Of a DNA stretch of 64,000 nucleotides, positions 26,734 through 42,265 are shown piece by piece. Made by a program: the position numbers and the translations under genes. The stretch's first letter is position 1; each line of letters opens with the position of its first letter. The notes under the pieces were generated by a model. It made no database searches. It was not told the DNA's origin and saw nothing but the letters and a program-made list of their open reading frames with translations. The stretch is from Actinophytocola gossypii. GTDB taxonomy: Bacteria > Actinomycetota > Actinomycetes > Mycobacteriales > Pseudonocardiaceae. Location: NCBI RefSeq assembly GCF_025165815.1, contig NZ_JAFFZE010000024.1, positions 1-64,000 of the forward strand, read 5' to 3'.

Positions 26734-27453
26734 ATGGCAAAGCGCAGCAAGGCCTACCGTCAGGCCTCCGAGCTGGTCGACCGCGACCGGCTGTACTCGC
26801 CGCTCGAGGCCGCGAAGCTCGCCAAGGAGACGTCCCGGGTGAAGCTGGACGCGACCGTCGAGGTCGCCATCCGGCTCGGGGTCGACCCCCGCAAGGCGGA
26901 CCAGATGGTGCGCGGCACGGTGAACCTGCCGCACGGCACCGGCAAGACCGCGCGCGTGATCGTGTTCGCCACCGGTGACAAGGCCAACGAGGCCGTCGCC
27001 GCGGGTGCGGACGAGGTCGGCGCCGAGGACCTGATCGAGCGTATCCAGGGTGGCTGGCTCGACTTCGACGCCGCGATCGCGACCCCCGACCAGATGGCGA
27101 AGGTCGGCCGCATCGCGCGCATCCTCGGCCCGCGCGGCCTGATGCCGAACCCGAAGACCGGCACCGTGACCCCGGACGTCACCAAGGCCGTCGCCGACAT
27201 CAAGGGCGGCAAGATCAACTTCCGGGTGGACAAGCAGTCGAACCTGCACCTGGTGATCGGCAAGGCCTCCTTCGACCAGGAGAAGCTGGTCGAGAACTAC
27301 GCGGCCGCCCTCGACGAGGTCCTCCGCGCCAAGCCCTCCGCCGCGAAGGGCCGCTACCTCAAGAAGGTCACCTTCTCCACCACCATGGGCCCCGGCATCC
27401 CGGTCGACCCGGCCCGCACCCGCAACATGCTGGCCGACGAGCCCGTCGCCTGA
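26734..27453 (+). CDS. rplA: 50S ribosomal protein L1
   Basis: 239 residues from the ATG at 26734 ([10 protein letters not shown]); an in-frame ATG four codons earlier is less typical. [18 protein letters not shown] is the family signature. L1 forms the mobile stalk at the E site and can repress its own operon. A strong terminator follows. Confidence 0.97.
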
Positions 27454-27469
27454 CCCAGCACACACGCGA

Positions 27470-27507
27470 AACGGCGCCCCGCGAGGACAACCTCGTGGGG
27501 CGCCGTT
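27470..27507 (+). terminator. Strong hairpin terminator after rplA
   Basis: AACGGCGCCCCGCGAGG (27470-27486) pairs with CCTCGTGGGGCGCCGTT (27491-27507) over 17 bp with one mismatch position (G-T) and a 4-nt loop. Confidence 0.85.
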
Positions 27508-27516
27508 CCACTATCC

Positions 27517-27637
27517 GCGAGTCGTACCGTCCCGTCGCGCGAGTCGTACGTTCCGGTCGCGCGAGTCGTACGTTCCGGGAGCGTACGGCTCGCCGGACGG
27601 GAGCGTACGGCTCGCCGGACGGGAGCGTACGACTCGC
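27517..27637. repeat. Inverted array of six GCGAGTCGTACG repeats, 22-bp period
   Basis: Three direct copies begin at 27517, 27539 and 27561 (consensus GCGAGTCGTACGTTCCGGTC) and three inverted copies at 27577, 27599 and 27621 (consensus GGGAGCGTACGGCTCGC). Within each half the period is exactly 22 bp, about two helical turns, and the two halves meet in a dyad near 27578. There are no unique spacers. The same unit recurs at 41392-41453. No coding potential is supported here; the array ends 5 bp before the protease stop codon. Confidence 0.85.
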
Positions 27638-27642
27638 GGGGT

Positions 27643-28575
27643 TTACTGGGGGAGGATCTGGGCGTCGACGGCGGCCAGGGCGGTGGTCACCGGCTGGAAG
27701 AAGGTGACGCCGCCGGTGGTGCAGTTGCCGGCGCCGCCGGAGGTGAGGCCGACGGCCTCGCCGTTCTCGGTGAACAGCGGGCCGCCGCTGTCGCCTGGCT
27801 CGGCGCACACCGTGGTCTGGATCAGGCCGGTGACGGTGCCCTCCGGGTAGTTCACGGTGGCCTCCAGGCCGGTGACCTCGCCGTCGAACAGGCCGGTCGT
27901 GCTGCCCATCCGGAACACCCGCCTGCCGATCTCCGCGTCGGCGGCCTCCTCGATCGGGAACAGCTCGCCGTCGCCCAGGTCGACGGCGCTGGGTGCGTCG
28001 ACGGCCGGGTCGTCGTAGGTCAGCAGGGCGAAGTCGCCCTCGCCGGGGAACACGGCGTCCCGCACGGTGCCGATCGGGGCGCCATCCGGCGAGTCCGACC
28101 ACTCGTCGGCGATCACGCCGCAGTGCCCGGCGGTCAGGAAGCCAGGGGTGCCGTCGCCGGTGACGACGTTGAAGCCGAGCGAGCAGCGCCCGCCGCCGGC
28201 GAAGATGGCGTCGCCGCCCTCGGCGAACAGGCTCAGCTCGCCGGGTGTGCGGCGCAGCTTGGCCGTGTCCTCGCCGAGCGTGTCGACCGTGCTCTCCAGG
28301 GCGTCCCAGGTGTCGCCGGTCACCGTGGCGTCGGCGGTGACGATCATCCGGTCCGTCCTCGGGTCGACCGCCCAAGCGGTGCCGGGGATGCGGTCCTGCC
28401 GGAGCTGGTTGAGCGTGGTCATCGCCATGTCCCGGTCCGACGGCCTCGGCACGGGTGACGTGTTCCGCTCGGCCTGGGCCTGCGGCAGCAGGACGGCGAC
28501 CAGCGCCGCGACCGCGACCGCGGAAGCCCCGGCCACCAGGCCTTTCCTGCTCGTTGGACGGTGTTTGGCGCGCAC
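27643..28575 (-). CDS. Secreted S1-family serine protease (chymotrypsin fold)
   Basis: 310 residues. A signal peptide (RKGLVAGASAVAVAALVAVLL, cleavage after AQA near 35) is followed by a short pro-region (about 36-125) and the protease domain. The catalytic triad is visible: His in FLTAGHCG, Asp in GEGDFALLTYDD, Ser in EPGDSGGPLF; Cys pairs bracket the triad as in alpha-lytic/streptogrisin enzymes. It is exported and probably self-processed. GTG at 28575 has CGAGGAGG at a 7-nt spacing, and this site lies inside a strong hairpin. The pro-region is compact relative to most streptogrisins. Confidence 0.88.
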   Translation of the reverse strand: MRAKHRPTSRKGLVAGASAVAVAALVAVLLPQAQAERNTSPVPRPSDRDMAMTTLNQLRQDRIPGTAWAVDPRTDRMIVTADATVTGDTWDALESTVDTLGEDTAKLRRTPGELSLFAEGGDAIFAGGGRCSLGFNVVTGDGTPGFLTAGHCGVIADEWSDSPDGAPIGTVRDAVFPGEGDFALLTYDDPAVDAPSAVDLGDGELFPIEEAADAEIGRRVFRMGSTTGLFDGEVTGLEATVNYPEGTVTGLIQTTVCAEPGDSGGPLFTENGEAVGLTSGGAGNCTTGGVTFFQPVTTALAAVDAQILPQ

Positions 28576-41227: not shown

Positions 41228-42265
41228 GTGCCCCCCTCACGCCGCCGCCCGACCCCGAACCCGTCCCAGACCCCACCCGTCCGCCGCCGCAAGGTAGCCG
41301 GCCACAACCGCCCCACCCCACCCCCCGACACCCCCGCCGAGCCCCCCGAGCACGGGTCCGTCTCCGGCACCCTCGACCCCCAGGACCCCCCGCGAGTCGT
41401 ACCTTCCCGTCCCGCGAGTCGTACGTTCCCGTCGCGCGAGTCGTACGCTCCCGGCCCCGACGAGTGGACCGAGCCCACCGAGGACCCCGAGCCCACCGAC
41501 CTCGAAGACGCCGAGCCCGCCGAGCCCGCCGACCCCGAGCCGGCCCAGCCCGAGCCAGCCCAGCCCGCGTCCGAGTCCGAGTCCGCGCAGCCCGAGGCCC
41601 CCGAGCCGACCCACCGTCCCGCCGGCAAGCGCCGCGCCGCCGGCACGGCCCGTCCCGCCGACCTCACCGCCGCCGAGGCCGAGGCCGCCGCCCGCGAGCC
41701 CGCCACCGCCCCCCGCCGGAGCACCGTCAACCGGTACGCCGTGGCCGGCGTCCTCGCCCTGGTGGCCGTCGTGATCGCCGGCCTCGGCTTCTGGTTCCGC
41801 GGCGAAGCCCAGGCCGTGCACAGCGCCGACAACAACACCGCGCTGACCGACTCGGCCACCACCAGCGAGGTGATCGGCCAGCTGACCTCGGCCATCGAGG
41901 ACACGTTCAGCTACAACTACACCGACCTCGCCAGCACCCAGCGGGCCGTCGAGTCTGTGCTGGCCGGCACGGCCCGCTGCGAGTACGACCAGCTCTTCGG
42001 CCAGATCAAGAAGCTCGCCCCGAAGCAGAAGATCATCATCGCCACCGCGGTCCGCGACATCGGCGTGGTCCGCCTCGACGGCGACCGCGCCGAGGCACTG
42101 GTCTTCATCGACCAGGTCTCCACCCGAGTCGACACGAACAAGTCCGGCGGCGGCGACGCCATGATCGGCGTCTCGGCCCACCGCGAGGGCGACACCTGGA
42201 AGATCACCGGCTTCAACATGTTCGACCAGGCCCTGGTCAACGGCGAGTCCGCACCCAAGTGCTGA
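41228..42265 (+). CDS. Mce-associated membrane protein with long low-complexity N-terminus
   Basis: 345 residues. The first 170 residues are Pro/Glu/Ala-rich and cytoplasmic; a membrane helix (AVAGVLALVAVVIAGLGFWF) sits near 173-193; the C-terminal domain repeats the Mas fold (ALTDSATTSEVIGQLTSAIEDTFSYNYTD, DRAEALVFIDQVSTRVDTNKS). The N-terminal region includes 62 bp of a dispersed DNA repeat (41392-41453) read as protein. Because the repeat period is 22 bp, successive copies are translated in different frames, so this segment is inserted sequence rather than conserved protein. GTG at 41228, with GAAAGGA upstream. Confidence 0.8.
   Translation: MPPSRRRPTPNPSQTPPVRRRKVAGHNRPTPPPDTPAEPPEHGSVSGTLDPQDPPRVVPSRPASRTFPSRESYAPGPDEWTEPTEDPEPTDLEDAEPAEPADPEPAQPEPAQPASESESAQPEAPEPTHRPAGKRRAAGTARPADLTAAEAEAAAREPATAPRRSTVNRYAVAGVLALVAVVIAGLGFWFRGEAQAVHSADNNTALTDSATTSEVIGQLTSAIEDTFSYNYTDLASTQRAVESVLAGTARCEYDQLFGQIKKLAPKQKIIIATAVRDIGVVRLDGDRAEALVFIDQVSTRVDTNKSGGGDAMIGVSAHREGDTWKITGFNMFDQALVNGESAPKC
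41392..41453 (+). repeat. Three GCGAGTCGTACG repeats, 22-bp period, inside a coding region
   Basis: Copies start at 41392, 41414 and 41436 with consensus GCGAGTCGTACGTTCCCGTC. Sequence and 22-bp spacing match the direct half of the array at 27517-27578, 14 kb away. All three are in the same orientation, and the ORF stays open through them. Confidence 0.9.

Follow-up and report, generated by a model that had tools for sequence, protein, structure and literature searches.

A 22-bp-periodic, probably mobile repeat family behind stop codons of Actinophytocola gossypii and other Pseudonocardiaceae

A six-copy inverted array between rplA and a protease gene

We analysed 64,000 nucleotides of Actinophytocola gossypii (contig NZ_JAFFZE010000024.1, positions 1 to 64,000; henceforth the window), which contain an array of three direct and three inverted copies of a 12-nucleotide core (positions 27517-27637), bounded by a hairpin downstream of rplA on the left and by the stop codon ending a protease gene on the right. 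The features concerned are given below; gene positions here and throughout come from a simple codon-usage gene caller, not from Prodigal.

26734..27453, plus strand: rplA (Pfam Ribosomal_L1), left neighbour of the six-copy array
27470..27507, plus strand: terminator-like hairpin behind rplA, outside the repeat family; a comparable inverted repeat was seen by eye in congeners that have no array
27515..27639, no strand: the whole dyad, an inverted repeat with 62-nt arms that are 82% complementary around a 1-nt centre
27517..27572, plus strand: three direct units with cores at 27517 (one mismatch), 27539 and 27561; period 22
27582..27637, minus strand: three inverted units with cores at 27582 and 27604 (one mismatch each) and 27626; period 22
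27643..28536, minus strand: trypsin-like protease with an alpha-lytic-type prodomain, right neighbour, its stop codon flush with the array
41392..41447, plus strand: second array of three direct units, 66 bp including their linkers, within the reading frame 41228-42265, which stays open

The period is exactly 22 bp in each half of the six-copy array, the halves meet as an inverted repeat, and the outermost inverted core (the unit at 27626) begins 5 nt past the stop codon of the protease gene. An earlier note, made from the letters of the window alone, had reported the same six units with inverted copies at 27577, 27599 and 27621; the units are indeed the same, but their cores begin 5 nt later. 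RNA folding of positions 27455-27645 gave a z-score of -12.2, in part because this stretch also contains the rplA hairpin, and the array with short margins gave -11.4. At the gathering score, a search of Rfam 15 with the window and five array loci returned only four tRNAs, meaning that the repeat was left without an RNA family match.

The second array that the earlier note had placed 14 kb away is present as three direct copies, but its position is within a coding frame rather than at a gene end. Two others of the five arrays within called reading frames (L063:3953-4008 and L069:3951-4006; the L numbers denote loci and the G numbers below genomes) likewise have exactly three units (66 bp), a length that leaves the frame intact despite the 22-bp period. 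Counted only within the window, matches to the 12-mer with at most two mismatches were no more frequent than expected by chance (20 matches vs. 16.3 expected; 21 of 100 shuffles reached 20).

A genome-wide family of phased arrays

Across the A. gossypii genome (7.38 Mb in 53 contigs) the exact core GCGAGTCGTACG occurs 197 times, 98 and 99 times on the two strands, compared with 0 and 1 for a reversed-pattern control. The loci fetched from this genome contain 190 of the 197 exact cores, and in them we mapped 57 arrays: 28 with units in one orientation, 28 with units in both orientations and one single copy. Steps between neighbouring cores were highly regular: same-orientation cores were 22 bp apart (94 and 80 steps), with 19 bp where runs part (n = 22), 21 bp where runs meet (n = 11) and five other steps, so that 207 of 212 steps fell on a 22/21/19-bp lattice. 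Mismatched copies were retained only if they lay on the lattice, which biases this count towards it; a step list made without the filter shows the same 22-, 21- and 19-bp steps. The dispersed family proposed in the earlier note is thus borne out, both by these copies and arrays and by the presence of the unit in relatives from the same family (see below).

Linkers were 0.908 identical within a run and 0.746 identical between arrays, and none of 2000 shuffles gave a value as high. By contrast, the linkers of opposite runs within one array were only 0.587 identical, compared with 0.742 for different arrays. These values indicate that each run is homogenised separately and that the linkers do not preserve arm pairing. 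The 28 one-orientation arrays had, taken together, weak predicted RNA folds (median z = -1.3; z from -6.5 to 0.1), whereas arrays with both orientations folded very stably, with median z-scores of -11.4 for convergent (n = 7), -8.8 for divergent (n = 14) and -10.2 for mixed layouts (n = 7). The dyad layout stressed in the earlier note, while real at 27517-27637, is therefore not essential to the family, given that 28 of 57 arrays have one orientation and fold weakly and that opposite arms show no special match; on the same grounds we rejected the hairpin as the sole selected unit.

Arrays gather in convergent gaps and directly behind stop codons

Most arrays are extragenic: 28 of the 57 lie in convergent gaps, 21 in tandem gaps and 3 in divergent gaps (52 outside called genes), with the other 5 inside reading frames. 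Among gaps of up to 1500 bp, which excludes one intergenic array in a longer gap, 28 of 51 array-bearing gaps were convergent vs. 47 of 418 array-free gaps (Fisher p = 5e-12); the loci had been picked around arrays, meaning that the background gaps stem from the same neighbourhoods. The same excess was found in the congener G005 (32/64 array-bearing vs. 26/222 array-free gaps; Fisher p = 5e-10; 100 of 103 places listed and 60 loci fetched) and in Saccharothrix yanglingensis (15/23 vs. 23/153; Fisher p = 1e-6; 27 loci, each chosen for two adjacent exact cores). Two-orientation arrays in particular concentrate in convergent gaps, with 22 of these 28 arrays lying there vs. 6 of the 29 other arrays (p = 1.6e-5).

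Of 32 edges whose run is sense to the gene ending there, 23 have a core that starts 3-6 nt behind the stop codon (3-4 nt for 20 edges), and the junction at these 23 stop-flush edges mostly reads stop codon, CCC(C), core. The stop codons at the 23 junctions are TGA (20) and TAA (3). Within 26 nt of sense edges we counted 23 TGA, 3 TAA and no TAG, compared with 89 TAG among the 475 stop codons of all called genes. Antisense edges are near stop codons too, less exactly than sense edges. The phased arrays at gene ends that the earlier note would have taken as a sign of a functional family are hence numerous, as judged by the 57 arrays, the convergent-gap excess and the stop-codon junctions. One-orientation arrays in tandem gaps were sense in nine cases and antisense in seven, and a strand-specific RNA function is therefore not favoured.

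Patchy distribution and differing unit types

The general unit GAGTnnnACGnnC, searched with a pattern allowing a period of 20-23 bp, was found in 60 of 390 Pseudonocardiaceae genomes and in 14 of 46 genera, with a patchy distribution that includes matches in only one of five congeners of A. gossypii. About 32 genomes of the family had at least ten matches, and control counts there were zero or nearly zero. In a class-wide sample of 394 genomes, which includes A. gossypii and two other family members, nine genomes outside the family had one or two matches each. The reversed control pattern itself matched several times in four genomes (G257, G259, G347 and G415), and in G347 the control (29 + 21) exceeded the forward matches; this suggests that unrelated tandem families lie behind the control matches in these four.

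The earlier note's exact 22-bp period, which holds in both halves of the window's array, does not extend to all relatives: judged by the places listed for 15 genomes, 13 of these have it, but two (G068 and G083) have a period of 21 bp. The genera Saccharothrix, Amycolatopsis and Lentzea belong to the Pseudonocardiaceae, and Amycolatopsis suaedae (L055, genome G062) has 113 exact cores, mostly with a 21-bp step in the places listed.

While the GAGT and ACG blocks of the unit are conserved across genera, the central triplet differs between two congeners: it is CGT in 200 of 208 units of A. gossypii and CCA in 174 of 184 units of G005. Three clear array sites are common to the two genomes (L081/L162, L072/L200 and L099/L201), with a doubtful fourth whose near flanks do not align (L096/L182), and the difference in unit type also holds at the three clear ones. 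Such prevailing types, differing even at common sites, imply that the family turns over genome-wide; if the common sites were inherited, conversion or replacement has altered the unit type throughout the genome. Inheritance is suggested by L081/L162, where the repeats flank the same gene in both species; as the sites in common are few, they may also stem from independent insertion at favoured places. The rplK-rplA tree gave no resolved sister grouping of A. gossypii and G005. At 3 of its 27 loci (L085/L042, L079/L045 and L065/L033), S. yanglingensis has arrays in the same gaps as A. gossypii. CGT units occur there in both species, accompanied in S. yanglingensis by further types, and these common positions suggest that some of the family may be of old, inherited origin.

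Other sites are filled in one species and empty in another. The gap between rplA and the protease gene has no array in any of the congeners G001-G005, all five of which have a hairpin-like stretch there, and measures 65-80 nt between aligned ends vs. 189 nt in A. gossypii. The gaps of S. yanglingensis that match the A. gossypii arrays L067 and L074 contain no units, even under a relaxed search, and neither does the G005 counterpart of the array at L097:4004; conversely, one site is filled in G005 (L213) and empty in A. gossypii (L097). The empty sites are too diverged to show a target-site duplication of the kind associated with MITEs.

In some relatives the last unit of a run deviates from the rest. 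Its triplet is TCT in 20 of 50 S. yanglingensis runs, and in a set of 16 g22 loci (one of which, L119, is from S. yanglingensis) it is TCA in 13 of 25 runs vs. 2 of 35 inner units. Runs of A. gossypii and G005 stay mainly CGT and CCA, respectively, to the end.

Search for a mobilising enzyme

No match to PF01797 (Y1/RAYT) was found in the A. gossypii genome, with a positive E. coli control, and a match was present in 5 of 30 array-bearing genomes (A. gossypii included) vs. 1 of 13 array-less genomes. With no Y1 transposase match in 25 of the 30 array-bearing genomes, A. gossypii among them, we rejected a RAYT-driven REP as the source of the arrays. Comparing 109 proteins encoded next to arrays by blastp showed no recurrent dominant family (13 distinct pairs at 1e-5, one being the same gene twice). 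One gene drew attention by its position: a DUF559/Vsr-like nuclease gene (L081:4254-5078) sits between two facing arrays (L081:3993-5153, contig C28), and its G005 orthologue (L162) is flanked by an array on one side only, the opposite side having two degenerate units. A tblastn search with this protein in the window and the loci from L031 upward (1.23 Mb) returned, besides its own locus, only the G005 orthologue (matched twice, as two of the loci overlap), and we treat this single locus as only a lead to a mobiliser.

Comparison with known repeat systems

CRISPR arrays consist of direct repeats with a constant period and unique spacers and can end in a deviant last unit. The arrays described here resemble them in their constant-period direct repeats and, in some relatives, in a different last unit. 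Unlike CRISPR, the arrays of A. gossypii have no unique spacers and their linkers are near-identical within a run, which upholds the earlier note in setting CRISPR aside.

A closer likeness is to REP and BIME elements. According to PMC2817692, REP/BIME sequences associated with RAYTs (IS200/IS605-like Y1 transposases) are present in more than 100 copies, are extragenic and form regularly spaced clusters with alternating orientation. The family in A. gossypii is likewise abundant, extragenic, located behind genes and clustered in both orientations, but is dominated by direct tandem runs on a 22-bp lattice. Its unit is not a clear palindrome (one-orientation arrays have the weak median noted above, although a few fold better, down to -6.5), and no GTAG tag was seen by eye in the unit consensus. 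CGTC is present in the A. gossypii linker (CCCGTCGC) and absent from the G005 consensus, and by eye no stem ends there. Lacking a clear palindrome, any GTAG or CGTC tag where a stem ends, and a RAYT match in this genome, the repeat was not filed as a REP.

CGTC-tagged REPs, as described in PMC3733652, have stems of 8-9 bp and loops of 4-5 bp and mostly form head-to-head dimers, with clusters being rare. Shared with them are the absence of a dedicated transposase, a location mostly behind coding regions and some intragenic copies; here, unlike there, copies usually occur in arrays and the unit yielded no stem of that kind. Neither 'Actinobacteria' nor 'Saccharo' occurs in the text of that paper. 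For REPINs, PMC3116915 proposes an inverted doublet with compensatory changes as the replicating unit. As in REPINs, facing copies form hairpins and evenly spaced tandem arrays exist; what differs is that half of the arrays (28) are one-directional and that linkers of opposite runs match less well than those of different arrays (0.587 vs. 0.742). Finally, PMC12306157 (RepRanger) reports that 446 of 4,072 predicted E. coli REPs are no more than 15 nt away from a stop codon. A location shortly after stop codons is thus common to both, with 23 of 32 A. gossypii sense edges being as close as 3-6 nt. The paper mentions neither 'Saccharo' nor 'Streptomyces'.

We found no description of the repeat among the CC-licensed PMC papers listed by our searches, where the exact 12-mer gave just an unrelated mammalian-promoter match. 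Judged from these papers and Rfam only, the family is undescribed.

Origin and possible roles of the arrays

The arrays are probably best explained as a REP/BIME-like, RAYT-less, mostly non-coding mobile repeat of Pseudonocardiaceae, which multiplies, settles behind stop codons and is largely tolerated. This reading is favoured by the copy number, the lattice, the convergent-gap excess, the stop junction, presence and absence at matching sites, linker identity, the prevailing unit types of two congeners and the patchy distribution. The spreading element that the earlier note had offered as one of two readings accordingly fits the genome-wide copy number, the arrays at gene ends and the occurrence across the family's genomes. 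A unit or short run would insert directly behind a stop codon by some process; run length would then change in 22-bp steps through slippage or unequal exchange, giving rise to variants private to an array. At convergent gene pairs, either gene end may acquire its own run, such that dyads form and the long hairpin would be mainly a consequence. Ectopic gene conversion or repeated waves of insertion could replace the unit type genome-wide. A secondary effect of the arrays on mRNA 3' ends or terminating ribosomes, of the sort reported for E. coli REPs close to stop codons, would be plausible. Against this reading, neither transposition, target duplication nor a mobilising enzyme was seen; two kinds of stop codon at the junctions (TGA and TAA) are odd for plain sequence-specific insertion, and plain slippage does not predict the deviant last unit in the S. 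yanglingensis and other g22 runs. The possibly inherited S. yanglingensis sites and the small number of sites in common with G005 also count against it.

Alternatively, the arrays may be selected 3'-end elements, i.e., bidirectional terminators, mRNA stabilisers or ribosome-stalling structures behind stop codons. The convergent-gap excess, the stop-flush position and the very stable folds of two-orientation arrays all point this way, as does the report of ribosomes stalling at REPs that lie no more than 15 nt from a stop codon (PMC12306157). We nevertheless consider this rather unlikely, as arrays of one orientation have weak folds overall and, in tandem gaps, are almost evenly split between sense and antisense, opposite arms show no special linker match, and rplA already has a hairpin, with all five congeners managing without the array.

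A bolder variant of mobility, which we rate as unlikely, is a new class of self-amplifying repeat in which a dedicated enzyme (candidate: the DUF559 Vsr-like nuclease) would set down 21- or 22-bp units directly behind stop codons. It would do so in polar order, end the runs of some genomes with a special unit and recode the central triplet genome-wide; if true, species would use partly the same sites, each with a unit code of its own.

The other reading in the earlier note was a binding platform, in which a sequence-specific nucleoid, segregation or regulatory protein would occupy units about two helical turns apart. It is consistent with the GAGT and ACG blocks being kept across genera at a 21- or 22-bp period (15 genomes, with a pattern allowing 20-23) and with one-orientation arrays retaining the unit without a hairpin. 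This appears distinctly unlikely to us, given that core-to-core steps shift to 21 and 19 bp at junctions, that the number and place of arrays vary widely (most congeners having no pattern match at all) and that the central triplet differs genome-wide between congeners.

A dedicated repeat-addition system that writes units behind stop codons in polar order would account for the CCC(C) junction and the deviant last units, and the DUF559 gene between arrays is a conceivable component; since there is just one such gene locus, and runs of A. gossypii and G005 have little or no special last unit, we regard this system as highly improbable. Chance or a one-off tandem duplication, with which only the near-chance 12-mer count in the window agrees, is refuted by the genome-wide count of 197 exact copies vs. 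1 in the control, the lattice spacing and the many genomes with zero control counts, and has next to no probability.

As a REP/BIME-like mobile repeat, the family would extend REP-like repeats to the Pseudonocardiaceae, with a tandem lattice, no clear palindromic unit, a precise stop junction and, in A. gossypii, no RAYT match. The two congeners, differing in unit type also at common sites, provide a natural experiment on chromosome-wide repeat homogenisation, and the arrays are a test case for why dispersed repeats gather behind stop codons.

Minor features of the units

Three features of the A. gossypii units were observed in passing. The base after the core is not T (being nearly always C instead) in 33 reverse vs. 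7 forward units as the contigs are written, a surprising bias in that the orientation of contigs should be arbitrary. The GC skew of the sampled loci spoke neither for nor against a replication-strand origin of this bias. Of the 14 arrays whose runs meet, 8 combine, by eye, a T-type left arm with a C-type right arm, which allows U.G pairing on one strand only. ACC in place of ACG is commoner in the unit at an array's outer 5' end: 14 of 49 outer units have C at this position, compared with 27 of 220 other units.
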